Below, piece by piece: positions 5,769 through 10,803 of a stretch of 64,000 bases of DNA (position 1 is its first letter; every line of letters begins with the position of its first letter). The translations under genes were made by a program, and so were the position numbers. The stretch is from Desulfosudis oleivorans (GTDB taxonomy: Bacteria; Desulfobacterota; Desulfobacteria; Desulfobacterales; SURF-7), in the NCBI GenBank assembly GCA_020723305.1, contig DYJC01000005.1, positions 62,001 through 126,000 on the forward strand, in the 5' to 3' direction. The notes below the pieces were generated by a model that worked only from the letters and a program-made list of their open reading frames with translations, searched no databases and was not told where the DNA came from.

Positions 5769-7232
5769 ATGCTTGTTGTTCCGATCACCGGTAAAATAAG
5801 CTGGAAAAATCCGCCGGTTGTCACTATTGCCTTAATTCTCATCAACTGTTTGATCTTTTTCCTCTTTCAAATGGATGATAACATCAAGTACCTTCTGGCG
5901 CATGAACAGTACTTCAAATCCGGACTGGCGGATATCGAGGTTTCCGCATATGTGGAATATAAAACCTCCGAGAAACTCCCGGCAGATCAGATCCGGAATC
6001 ATTTCAATGATGAAATACGGAATCAGTATTATGAAGCAATGGAATCGGATTCGGAATTTCAGAAAAAGCTCGCTGCAGAAAAGATCATAACCCGAAATGA
6101 TCCAATATTTGAAAAATGGAAGGGATTAAAATTACAAAATCAAAAACTTCTAGATGATGTCACTTTCTTACATTACGGTTTCATACCTGCAAAAGCAGAT
6201 ATTACAACTGCTTTTACTTACATGTTTCTTCATGGCGGGTTTACTCATCTGTTGGGAAACATGATTTTTCTATGGCTTGTTGGATGCATGCTGGAAATGG
6301 GATGCGGCCGTCTTTTCTGCCTTGCAGCCTATCTTATCACCGGCCTCTTTTCCGTCCTGCTGTTCTGGGCTGTCTACATGGACAGCATGGTTCCGCTTGT
6401 CGGAGCATCAGGGGCAATTGCCGGATTTATGGGTGCATTCACGACCGTTTACGGCAGAAAAAAAATCAAGGTATTCTACTCACTTGGTTTTTACTTTAAT
6501 TATATCAAATTTCCTGCAATCATTCTATTTCCCATCTGGATTGGGAATGAATTTTTCCAGCTCTTTTCCATCGAACAGAGCAATGTTGCCTATGTTGCTC
6601 ATATCGGAGGTCTTTTAAGCGGGGCATTGATGGGATATCTTGATCTGAAATTTTTTAAAATCCATAATGCAGAAGTTTTCACCGAAGAGCCAAAAGATGA
6701 AATCTCTCCACTGCTTGAACATGCGCTCCAATGTATTGGAAGACTGGAGATAGAAGAAGCACGATCTTATCTGATGAAGATATTAACAAAAGCGCCTGAA
6801 AATAAAGATGCGCTTGTCCATCTTTTTAACATTGAAAAACTTACACCTCAAACTCAAGAATTTCATCATGCTGCAAGTAGGCTGCTTCATTTTTATTGCC
6901 GCGGTCGCGAGAATCACAAAAAGGCATATGATATCTATCGAGAATACAGAAGCCTGACAGCATCTCCCAGGCTATCACCCGATCTGTATACCCGTCTGGG
7001 TTCAGTATTCTCAGGAATTGGAGAAACCGGGCTTTCTGAAAAAATCTTCCAGATGCTTGTACAGAAAAAACCGTTACAACCAGGGATTCCGGAAGGACTT
7101 CTGAAACTGGCCGATGCGGAAAAAAATAAAGGAAACCTTGCCAAGTGGAAAAAATGCCTGACACTTGTCTGTACGCAGTATCCGGAATCAGCAGAGGCCA
7201 GAATTGCAAAACAACTGCTTCTGGCCCCGTAA
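5769..7232 (+). CDS. Rhomboid intramembrane serine protease with TPR tail
   Basis: A 487-residue membrane protein. After a first membrane helix (residues about 16-34) comes an unusually long polar insert of about 100 residues, then the rhomboid core. The core has HGGFTHLLGNMIFLW, the catalytic serine in GASGAIAG near residue 213, and the catalytic histidine in AHIGGLLSG near residue 278. The last 180 residues are helical repeats that look like TPR units. Rhomboids cleave membrane-anchored substrates within the bilayer; the TPR tail would face the cytoplasm and may recruit partners. The start is the ATG behind AAAAAGGA. Confidence 0.9.
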   Translation: MLVVPITGKISWKNPPVVTIALILINCLIFFLFQMDDNIKYLLAHEQYFKSGLADIEVSAYVEYKTSEKLPADQIRNHFNDEIRNQYYEAMESDSEFQKKLAAEKIITRNDPIFEKWKGLKLQNQKLLDDVTFLHYGFIPAKADITTAFTYMFLHGGFTHLLGNMIFLWLVGCMLEMGCGRLFCLAAYLITGLFSVLLFWAVYMDSMVPLVGASGAIAGFMGAFTTVYGRKKIKVFYSLGFYFNYIKFPAIILFPIWIGNEFFQLFSIEQSNVAYVAHIGGLLSGALMGYLDLKFFKIHNAEVFTEEPKDEISPLLEHALQCIGRLEIEEARSYLMKILTKAPENKDALVHLFNIEKLTPQTQEFHHAASRLLHFYCRGRENHKKAYDIYREYRSLTASPRLSPDLYTRLGSVFSGIGETGLSEKIFQMLVQKKPLQPGIPEGLLKLADAEKNKGNLAKWKKCLTLVCTQYPESAEARIAKQLLLAP

Positions 7233-7258: not shown

Positions 7259-8161
7259 CTACTCTGTCATCAATAAAAACTCAACTCCATTCTGACTTGG
7301 AGTAATAACCGGTTTGATAACTTTTTCCGAAATCAAATCACACACGATCCTGAGTTTTCTCTCATGTCTCCAGATCCTAATTTTTGAGACCAGATCACTG
7401 CTGACCTCTTTCAATTGAAAAGAAGGCTTCTGCCATTTCCCAGGCAGGTCAATCACTAGTCTGGGGGGATTGCTGAGAACAAAATACTTTTGCTTCAAAA
7501 TGGTCCTGTTGGCCCAGACTTCCAACAATTTTCCTTTCATATTCTCAGACAGCCGGATATCCTGTAAAATCAACTCCTGATGATCGGCTTCCGACAATAC
7601 CGGCTTAGGGATGGCTGTATCTTCTTTCTTCTGGTTTGCCAAGGGCTGAAGACCATTCTTTGTTTCAAAATCTGCTTGCTGCACTGGAACATCTTTTTTA
7701 GGTTCTATTCCTGGTACAGCCGATTCTGCCACGATCTTCTCCTGCCCGGCAGCAGGAAGATCTTCTTCACGATAACCCGCTGTCTTTGCCTGAATCACCT
7801 TTCCATCTTTTTCAAGGCTACGATTCTCTCCGTTTTCCTCTTTGGATGAATCCGGTTCGGTTGTGACGCTTCCCTCTTCGGGTTTTCCTTCCACCTCGCT
7901 GACTGTCACAGGAGAATCGACTGCCATTCCTGCATCACCTATGGCCTCAGACTCTATGTCGGATTTCTCTTCCAAGGATATGGAAGCATTTGATGAGGGG
8001 ATTTCGGATTTGGGAATTTTTATGGCAACCGTTTCTATGGGCTCAGGTTCCGTATTCTTTTGCTTCCCATTGATCCACAACACTCCCAAAATGAAAATAA
8101 AAACGACAACTGCACCTATTCCAAATTTACCAGCCTTGCTTTTCAGTATGTAATGAGCCAT
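7259..8161 (-). CDS. Membrane-anchored AMIN-domain protein
   Basis: A 300-residue protein with one N-terminal membrane helix (about residues 16-32), a long low-complexity Glu/Pro/Ser/Lys linker, and a C-terminal AMIN domain (about residues 205-300; YFVLSNPPRLVIDLPG and the IRIWRHERKLRIVCDL strand are characteristic). AMIN domains target cell-wall amidases and secretins to peptidoglycan or the septum in the periplasm. It is the third gene of a minus-strand set with a membrane amidase and an actin-like ATPase, 57 bp behind the amidase, which supports a role in wall processing. Confidence 0.82.
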   Translation of the reverse strand: MAHYILKSKAGKFGIGAVVVFIFILGVLWINGKQKNTEPEPIETVAIKIPKSEIPSSNASISLEEKSDIESEAIGDAGMAVDSPVTVSEVEGKPEEGSVTTEPDSSKEENGENRSLEKDGKVIQAKTAGYREEDLPAAGQEKIVAESAVPGIEPKKDVPVQQADFETKNGLQPLANQKKEDTAIPKPVLSEADHQELILQDIRLSENMKGKLLEVWANRTILKQKYFVLSNPPRLVIDLPGKWQKPSFQLKEVSSDLVSKIRIWRHERKLRIVCDLISEKVIKPVITPSQNGVEFLLMTE

Positions 8162-8218
8162 AGTGATACCTGTTTGTTAGAATCGATTCGTTGTTTTTTT
8201 CACCCCAATAGTAACAGG

Positions 8219-9718
8219 CTATGTTCCTGGTTGATCTCCTGTCGACAGCCCCCGATTTCCCACAGTTGTTTTTTCTTTCATCCATGTAAAAAACTGTTTG
8301 AATTTTCCGTTCAATATTTTTCGGTAATCTATAACACTCATGCGTCTTTCTTTGGCACGCATGGTGATAATTTTTTCAGATGCCGCTATCCCAGACCATA
8401 ATTTTCCTTGAAAAATTTCAACAAAATAATTGTCATATGTAAATCCGAATTCAGTTATGGCCGGTATCGGTTCTTCATATTTATTACTGATCTCAAAAAA
8501 ATCAAAAGGGAATCCATGTGACAGATCAAGATGATGACCAATCAACCGGTCATACGGATTAACAGATACCAGCCCATGCGGGACGCAATTGTTCTGTTGG
8601 ATTTTATATTTTACTCGAAGCCAATCTGTCAATTCCTTTCCGGATATTAATTGAGACTCGTTTATGGAAGATCGCTCCATCGGAACAATCGCCGGCTGAT
8701 TTTCATGCTGCAAAGAGGCATCGGAATGCTTTCTATCCTCAAAATCCTTGCCTTCAAAACAGATTCCGATAAATGCATGGTTCAGGTCAAGATATATAAA
8801 TTCATCATCTGCCCAGATAGAATTTCCACTGTGAAATGCCACCTGATCTTCCGGGATAAGCCTATAGATTTTCCCAAAACGATCAATAAAATAGTGATAG
8901 GCTTTTTTCTTATTCAGATACCGGATCAACAGTCGACTGTATTCCTTTATGGATTGTGTCATTTCAGGACGGTAAGCAAAAATATCACTTTCCGATGCGT
9001 GATAGAGAATGCCTTTTATCTGGTTTGTAAAAACTCCTGAACCCAAGAGTTTTCCATCTCCTTTTTTAAACAGATAATAACCCCTTGGAATGTTTTCTAT
9101 GGTCTGTGTTGTATTGATTTTTAATCGATTGCTGTAATACTCTGAATCATCCGATTTCTCGACCATCCAGATCAACTTGTCCAGGTATTTTGGAAATTCC
9201 CGGGACTGATCCTTTTTTTCAACAGGCGGAAGTGGTTCTACCTCCTTCACATGCTTGACCAACGGATAATGAACCGCATGGGATACCAAGGGCTCTTTTG
9301 TGTGTTGCAAGTACTCCTTCTGATGATTGTTGTACATTCCCTTGAAGGGAAATACCAGAATCCCGCCACTGAATAAGAAAATCAGGAATAACCCCAGACC
9401 CATAAAATAGACGGAACCCCGGAATCTTTCGATACTTGTTTCCGGAGTCCTACGGGCAGCTTTCAAATACTTTACTGCATTCTCTCCACTATACTCATTC
9501 TTCTTCTGTCTCTCTGAGAAATTGTTTGATGTATCGGATGATATTTCTTCTCTTTCAGGCCCGCTTTTCTCCGGATATTCATCAATGGCTCGTTTCAAAA
9601 ATCGGAGTTTCTGCACCGGATCTGAGATTGAACAAGCCACTGCCTCAATTTTCTTTCGATAGCTTTCAGGTGGCAGCTCTTTGGGCTCAGAAGACTGCAT
9701 GACATCAGATACAATCAA
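8219..9718 (-). CDS. Membrane-bound N-acetylmuramoyl-L-alanine amidase (Amidase_2)
   Basis: The first 100 residues are cytoplasmic and charged, a membrane helix runs from about 104 to 124 (FMGLGLFLIFLFSGGILVF), and a periplasmic Amidase_2/PGRP-type domain follows. Zinc-ligand candidates are His240 (GILYHASES), His296 (VAFHSGNS) and the later HHLDLSHG; the QNNCVPHGLVS loop is also present. This domain cleaves the amide between MurNAc and the stem peptide. The TTG start overlaps the actin-like gene's stop (TTGA), indicating coupling; an ATG six codons later (9700) is an alternative start. The cytoplasmic domain could contact the actin-like partner. Confidence 0.87.
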   Translation of the reverse strand: MIVSDVMQSSEPKELPPESYRKKIEAVACSISDPVQKLRFLKRAIDEYPEKSGPEREEISSDTSNNFSERQKKNEYSGENAVKYLKAARRTPETSIERFRGSVYFMGLGLFLIFLFSGGILVFPFKGMYNNHQKEYLQHTKEPLVSHAVHYPLVKHVKEVEPLPPVEKKDQSREFPKYLDKLIWMVEKSDDSEYYSNRLKINTTQTIENIPRGYYLFKKGDGKLLGSGVFTNQIKGILYHASESDIFAYRPEMTQSIKEYSRLLIRYLNKKKAYHYFIDRFGKIYRLIPEDQVAFHSGNSIWADDEFIYLDLNHAFIGICFEGKDFEDRKHSDASLQHENQPAIVPMERSSINESQLISGKELTDWLRVKYKIQQNNCVPHGLVSVNPYDRLIGHHLDLSHGFPFDFFEISNKYEEPIPAITEFGFTYDNYFVEIFQGKLWSGIAASEKIITMRAKERRMSVIDYRKILNGKFKQFFTWMKEKTTVGNRGLSTGDQPGT

Positions 9719-10803
9719 CCTTGATACATTGCCGAGATAAGGGCACCATTGGCTGTTGCATTCAATGGATCCCTGGCCATTCTGATTTCACTGATCTCAA
9801 CAGGGAATTCAATCTGATTGAGGAATTTCTCAAACCGCTCTTTAAACCCTTTGGGTTTTGCGGTTCCTCCGCTTAACACAATGGGAAGAGGTGAACTTAA
9901 CTTGGGAATTCTGGAGGTTTCTTCGATACTTTTTTTCATGGTCATAACAAGTTCACGGATTAAATCATCATAATAAATATGAAGCGCATCCTCTATCTCA
10001 TTTTCCGGCGTATTCAGGAGATTCAACTTGTTTTCTTTGATGGATCGAACCCGGGTGCTGACTTCCCGTGTAACAGAAGATACTGCCTCATCAATATAAT
10101 CACCACCTTTACTGATGCTGAAGGAGATGTGCGGTATGGAAAGAAAGGATAGGCAGACATTGCACATGCCGCCGCCGGCACTGATGCCAAATCCGGTAAA
10201 ATTTTCTTTTTCAAGCTCTGAAAAAACAACTGCCATGCCCTCATTGATGCTTTTTGATTTAAAACCTTTGTCATCCAACAATCGTTTTATAATGGCTTCA
10301 TGGTAAATGATATCACTCTCCGCTTTTTTGGGTGCTGCCGGAATGGAAAAGCAAAGCGGAGCATTTTTTTCTTCCGGATCCGGAACCAAGTCATCCAGAA
10401 TCCCTTTTATAATCTCGACGGCATTTACTTCGTTGGCGTTCAGAAGACCATTTTTCAACGGACGCCTTGTCTCTTTATTCAGTGTATTGGCAAAAATTTC
10501 TGCGCCATCTCCATAAACAACGATTGAGTCCTTGAGTCGATAGTGACATATATCATTCTGCTGCAATATCTTTTCCGTAAATTTTGAGTAATCAACCTCA
10601 ATAAATGCATTACGTTGGGAAAAATAATCCTTGCCGCCGTTTCCATTCCCATTTTTTGCAAAAACCGTTTTGGAGGTCCCGATATCCACACCAAGTGCTG
10701 ACCGACATATGTCTTTTTCATCATCTGATTCATTCACGGCATCTTCAAATATCTGGGAGATCTTTTTTTTGTTTTCAAAATGACCCTTCCGAACCTTTAC
10801 CAT
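9715..10803 (-). CDS. Actin/MreB-like ATPase
   Basis: A 362-residue member of the actin/Hsp70/MreB ATPase superfamily. The phosphate-1 loop GVDIGTSKT (residues 38-46), the phosphate-2 loop GFGISAGGG, the MreB-like GGDYIDEAV, and the adenosine motif VLSGGTAKPKGF are in order, and NATANGAL lies at the C-terminus. It is not a canonical MreB: it has an N-terminal charged extension of about 35 residues and Lys/Asn-rich inserts. It may polymerise in the cytoplasm. First gene of the set with a membrane amidase (overlapping) and an AMIN protein. It could also be of MamK or plasmid-segregation ParM type, but no magnetosome or par genes are nearby. Confidence 0.82.
   Translation of the reverse strand: MVKVRKGHFENKKKISQIFEDAVNESDDEKDICRSALGVDIGTSKTVFAKNGNGNGGKDYFSQRNAFIEVDYSKFTEKILQQNDICHYRLKDSIVVYGDGAEIFANTLNKETRRPLKNGLLNANEVNAVEIIKGILDDLVPDPEEKNAPLCFSIPAAPKKAESDIIYHEAIIKRLLDDKGFKSKSINEGMAVVFSELEKENFTGFGISAGGGMCNVCLSFLSIPHISFSISKGGDYIDEAVSSVTREVSTRVRSIKENKLNLLNTPENEIEDALHIYYDDLIRELVMTMKKSIEETSRIPKLSSPLPIVLSGGTAKPKGFKERFEKFLNQIEFPVEISEIRMARDPLNATANGALISAMYQG

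Follow-up and report, generated by a model that had tools for sequence, protein, structure and literature searches.

Volactin-type actin genes paired with genes for a single-pass membrane amidase in Desulfobacterales: a candidate module for wall cleavage

The window analysed here, a stretch of 64,000 nucleotides, comes from a genome of 5.4 Mb whose closest named relatives, MAGs of Desulfobacterium sp. and Desulfocicer vacuolatum, place it in the Desulfobacterales, an order of sulfate-reducing bacteria. Three minus-strand ORFs, which the first-pass annotation had described as encoding an actin-like ATPase, a membrane amidase and an AMIN protein, were confirmed, and the domain assignment of each held in Pfam (Table 1). 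The actin and amidase genes had also been described as overlapping; an overlap, limited to 4 nt, is obtained only when the amidase is read from the TTG at 9718. In the relative at locus L040, the amidase ORF starts at a conserved MQS, which corresponds to the ATG at 9700 in the window, so that a gap of 14 nt between the two genes is judged likelier than an overlap, and this ATG is likely to be the true amidase start. Scans for promoters and terminators gave the same counts as shuffled sequence. On the plus strand, at 5769-7232, lies a gene convergent with that of the AMIN protein; it encodes a TPR-repeat rhomboid protease, a weaker relative of which (31% identity) was found about 3 kb past the amidase gene at locus L115.

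Table 1. Features of the actin-amidase-AMIN locus in the window, and wall-synthase genes next to related actins at other loci.
Feature	Coordinates	Strand	Basis
Volactin-family actin, 362 aa	9715..10803	-	Pfam PF25216, AF2, VIA match, motifs
Bitopic membrane amidase, 499 aa ORF from TTG 9718	8219..9718	-	Pfam PF01510, alignment
Putative actin-docking motif of the amidase, residues 14-48	9575..9679	-	Residue conservation; restricted to these amidases
Amidase transmembrane helix, residues ~103-125	9344..9412	-	Hydropathy
Amidase periplasmic Amidase_2-type catalytic domain, residues 183-430	8429..9172	-	Profile alignment to E. coli AmiD
Membrane-anchored protein with periplasmic AMIN domain, 300 aa	7259..8161	-	Pfam PF11741, transmembrane helix
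AMIN domain, residues 203-278	7328..7555	-	Pfam; core kept in homologues
PBP1A-type protein fused to a receiver-like domain, beside sister actins	L042:1272-3479; L046:3576-5807; L048:8158-10380; L050:7851-10193; L140:4647-6889 (split in L140)

The first gene was found to encode an actin of the volactin/MamK type, as judged by Pfam and by structural matching, in agreement with its initial description as an actin-like ATPase. The protein passed the PF25216 cut-off by a wide margin (271.7 bits versus 35; E 1.4e-80; profile positions 3-321 of 321); Haloferax volactin, used as a positive control, was also matched. Structure prediction, which the first-pass annotation had suggested for the ATPase, gave a confident actin fold with AF2 and 37 relatives (mean pLDDT 87, pTM 0.85), preceded by about 28 disordered residues at the N-terminus. 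The best VIA structural match of the model was MamK (5ljv_A; Z 29.3, rmsd 2.9, 296 aligned residues), followed by BeeR (Z 28.2) and then MreB (Z 26-27). The nucleotide-binding motifs DIGTSK (residues 40-45), GISAGGG, INEG and VLSGGT were all recognized. In the phosphate-2 motif GISAGGG (window 10159-10182), Ser208 replaces the usual Asp, and the same Ser (GIS.GGGM) was observed in nearly all members of the volactin family, whether bacterial, archaeal or from viral contigs. Since the corresponding residue of MreB is Asp, ATP turnover by the actin may differ.

Assignment of the protein to better-known actin families was not retained. It is not an MreB, as no MreB_Mbl match was obtained at E 0.1 and its phosphate-2 motif differs from the VVDIGGG, with Asp, of the genome's own MreB. 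Scores of 20.6-35.4 bits against an NCBIfam cut-off of 400 exclude it from MamK proper, and a role in magnetosomes was discarded likewise, no match above that cut-off being present in the host genome. The unrelated families named in the first-pass annotation, PilM, EutJ and ParM, gave no match in Pfam at E 0.1, and a profile built from 37 sequences matched EutJ at E 0.002 versus 2.9e-6 for MamK. A viral origin was also rejected: seven relatives from IMG/VR (L146-L152) are just 28-36% identical to the actin and form a separate clade outside the bacterial one. Purifying selection on the actin was found to be very strong (dN/dS 0.02-0.08).

Two unusual arrangements were observed among other volactin-family actins. 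At L113 (2267-5723), a tandem pair of nearly identical actins is present. The second makes up the C-terminal end of a larger protein (722 aa), which also has a signal peptide, a vWA-like region and a transmembrane helix, so that here the actin domain is fused to a membrane protein. At L142 (4787-10150), the actin lies near an apparent second, different actin-like protein, recognized by eye, and two MinD/ParA-like ATPases.

The membrane topology initially given for the amidase was supported by a single predicted transmembrane helix (hydropathy maximum at residues 105-123), preceded by about 100 cytoplasmic residues. The Amidase_2 domain scored 52.9 bits against a PF01510 cut-off of 26 (E 6.1e-14; residues 233-381). 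In a profile alignment, H240, H381, D398 and E322 corresponded to H50, H151, D161 and E104 of E. coli AmiD, the established zinc ligands and catalytic Glu of that enzyme; the third zinc ligand adjoins a gap in the alignment to AmiD and its assignment is less certain. All four residues were invariant in 16 amidase homologues. Between the membrane and the enzyme domain lies a linker, whose length varied from about 70 to more than 300 residues across the amidases.

The cytoplasmic part of the amidase carries a conserved motif of 35 residues (14-48), LPPxxYRxxIExxAxxIxDPVxKLKFLxxAI, in which the mean fraction of the majority residue was 0.64, versus 0.34 in the remaining cytoplasmic part and 0.30 in the periplasmic linker. 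In a search of 194 genomes with a profile of the cytoplasmic region, these amidases alone were matched with confidence, one further hit being marginal, and in Pfam the motif gave sub-threshold chance matches only. Two short helices were predicted with low confidence, and the AF2 model of the amidase from 16 sequences was too poor for use (mean pLDDT 43), which leaves the motif without a confident structure. As an enzyme acting outside the membrane needs no such motif for its catalysis, a role in binding is its natural reading, and the motif is a candidate actin-docking site. In most other families the conserved cytoplasmic part of the amidase is longer than these 35 residues, so that docking may differ between families.

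To place the pair in a wider context, 389 genomes of the order were searched with profiles of both proteins. The amidase profile matched 17 genomes and the actin profile 39. In all 17 amidase-containing genomes, distributed over seven families, the actin was the next gene upstream of the amidase on the same strand, with an intergenic gap between -77 and 466 nt. Except among members of the same genus, the surrounding genes were unrelated, save for a few weak or off-position matches, so the pairing does not merely reflect synteny of the whole region. In a maximum-likelihood tree of 56 actins, all 17 amidase-linked sequences fell in one clade (support 100/100), and pairwise distances among the actins correlated strongly with those among the amidases (Mantel r 0.916; none of 2000 permutations as high). 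The association of the two genes is well beyond chance, and we regard their genetic pairing as near certain. Outside the order no amidase of this kind was found, the window's own being the single match among 395 sampled genomes of the phylum, nor were homologues found on plasmids. Purifying selection was weaker on the amidase (dN/dS 0.23-0.34), and on the amidase and AMIN genes taken jointly (0.21-0.34), than on the actin, and the much slower evolution of the latter suggests that it may have further partners.

The third protein exceeded the PF11741 cut-off (29.3 bits versus 20.5; E 9.4e-07), and the proposal that it anchors an AMIN domain in the periplasm was supported by one N-terminal transmembrane helix (residues 13-31) together with the Pfam assignment. 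AMIN is a domain of the peptidoglycan-binding type, and its core, IRxW..xKLRIV.DL, was kept in five homologues. The gene was located 3' of the amidase gene in six of the seven same-family loci with enough contig, and after the amidase in none of the sampled loci from other families. Of the three genes proposed to form one set, the amidase gene was thus always accompanied by the actin gene, but by the AMIN gene in a single family, and the product of the latter is an accessory, family-specific helper.

Most of the other family actins in the order form the sister group to the amidase-linked clade. In one subclade of this group (support 100/97), the actin gene is followed by that of a PBP1A-type protein, which has transglycosylase and transpeptidase domains and, ahead of them, a receiver-like domain plus a transmembrane helix (Table 1). 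At other sister loci the receiver-like domain is encoded as a stand-alone protein, and at several of them a MinD-like ATPase then follows downstream, with coiled-coil and HEAT-repeat genes upstream; some sister-group actins have neither partner. In the PDB, the receiver-like profile matched receivers, Spo0F among them. Receivers carry a conserved Lys, at the apparent position of which the stand-alone domains have an Asp, so the domain may be a pseudo-receiver. In L036 (1649-9190), L045 and L047, a conserved group, made up of a HEAT-repeat gene and several coiled-coil genes, was observed upstream of the actin and a separately encoded receiver-like protein. In L045 and L047 a gene for a MinD-like ATPase lies downstream. 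The cluster resembles a larger cytoskeletal apparatus. Taken with the amidase clade, the PBP1A-linked sister clade means that peptidoglycan enzymes of opposite effect adjoin one actin family. These sister actins, together with the amidase's own cytoplasmic motif, lend the initial proposal a support that it did not itself contain; the genetic finding is stronger than could be known from the window, even as the AMIN protein is reduced to a helper.

We consider it somewhat probable that the actin and amidase constitute a two-gene morphogenesis module, in which the filament would recruit the amidase and so fix the sites of wall cleavage, with the AMIN protein as a helper in one family. The computed basis of this reading comprises family membership, hydropathy-derived topology, conserved catalytic residues, obligate adjacency, co-evolution and the cytoplasmic motif. 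From these we infer polymerisation, docking, active hydrolysis and an influence on local cell shape or on the architecture of large cells. ATP-dependent filaments of the actin probably line the inner face of the cytoplasmic membrane. The amidase, crossing the membrane once, would dock on them through residues 14-48, and its zinc amidase domain, carried on the long variable periplasmic linker, would cut the N-acetylmuramic acid–L-alanine bond at sites chosen by the filament. The AMIN protein would add a second membrane-tethered, peptidoglycan-binding part, which may help to keep the amidase at the wall or to activate it there. Judged from sequence, a physical link of this kind between filament and amidase is likely.

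The amidase might instead be more an anchor than a cutter, its enzyme domain gripping peptidoglycan while the actin positions vacuoles, nucleoid or inclusions in the manner of MamK. That the closest fold match is an organelle-positioning filament would fit such a role, as would the peptidoglycan-binding type of the AMIN domain and the intracellular transport or structural function proposed for Bbp in giant cells (PMC10580974). Zinc ligands and a catalytic Glu that are invariant in 16 homologues would however be needless in a pure anchor, and the sister actins adjoin a wall synthase rather than a second anchor; we therefore find this explanation unlikely, if the strongest of the three considered here. 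A second possibility, that the actin-fold protein makes no filaments but serves as an ATP-dependent switch, binding the amidase and activating it, like FtsA or PilM with their single-pass partners, appears improbable. It would account for the Ser in place of the phosphate-2 Asp across the family and for the one-to-one pairing, but Haloferax volactin, from the same Pfam family, makes dynamic filaments in cells (PMC10869688), filament formers (MamK, BeeR and MreB) lead the fold matches, and so strong a purifying selection is consistent with a polymer.

Adjacency could also be the trace of an old operon that provides shared expression only, the two proteins acting separately. Neighbouring genes are often merely co-regulated, and the variable intergenic gap would agree with this. 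Yet the two genes stay linked in seven families in which the surrounding genes are otherwise unrelated, none of the 389 genomes has the amidase without the actin, and the amidase carries its own conserved cytoplasmic motif, so that we give this explanation very little credence.

These findings bear on the function, in Desulfobacterota and other large-celled bacteria, of actins that are neither MreB nor MamK. For Bbp, structure or transport was proposed in 2023 (PMC10580974). The fixed linkage of one clade with an amidase, and that of its sister clade with PBP1A, point to peptidoglycan as the output. We tentatively suggest, at somewhat less than even confidence, that bacterial volactin-type actins make up a second, MreB-independent wall actin system with exchangeable outputs: the amidase in one clade and, in the sister clade, PBP1A through the pseudo-receiver, in some cases joined by MinD-like, HEAT-repeat and coiled-coil proteins. 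If so, filaments of non-MreB actins would guide the cutting of the wall as well as its synthesis, which would give such actins a testable function in large or oddly shaped bacteria, and the short cytoplasmic motif of the amidase is a candidate whose binding can be tested directly.

In the literature searched, which lay mostly outside subscription journals, no description was found of the pairing of an actin with an amidase or PBP1A in these bacteria; several known systems nevertheless resemble parts of it. Control of periplasmic wall enzymes from the cytoplasm is shared with the MreB elongasome and with FtsEX-EnvC-amidase. The first-pass annotation had presented the locus as an alternative to these; as a replacement this does not hold, since the host genome keeps a canonical MreB, elsewhere on contig C32, and two Amidase_3 genes, and the module is better described as an addition to both.

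Among bacterial actins outside the MreB line, the magnetotactic MamK and Mad28 are comparable to the window actin, MamK being its closest fold match and the one covered by our sequence comparison. Bbp, the 'big bacteria protein', is an actin distinct from MreB that occurs in large bacteria (Ca. Electrothrix gigas, Desulfonema, Beggiatoa and Ca. Magnetoglobus). Compared by description only, it is similar in standing close to MamK and in occurring in Desulfobacterales alongside MreB, but its reported partners in E. gigas are a hypothetical protein and a Kelch protein, an amidase being unmentioned (PMC10580974). The volactin of Haloferax volcanii belongs to the same PF25216 family as the window actin; the role shown for it differs, being morphogenesis of the disk shape. 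A Haloarcula relative is 41% identical to the window actin and has the same altered phosphate-2 motif. Haloarchaea lack peptidoglycan, and no annotated amidase lies within 4 kb of the Haloarcula volactin-family gene.

The closest parallel in organization is that of BacA and LmdC in Hyphomonas and Rhodospirillum, in which the bactofilin BacA binds LmdC, a bitopic M23 hydrolase encoded in the same operon, at residues 1-38 of the hydrolase (PMC10945521). There too, a cytoskeletal gene adjoins that of a single-pass membrane hydrolase with a short conserved cytoplasmic N-terminus and a periplasmic zinc hydrolase domain. Docking is proven for LmdC and predicted for the amidase described here, and the parts differ: a bactofilin and an M23 endopeptidase in the one case, a volactin-type actin and an Amidase_2 enzyme in the other. 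The window module is thus not a BacA-LmdC system, but appears to follow the same logic with unrelated components.
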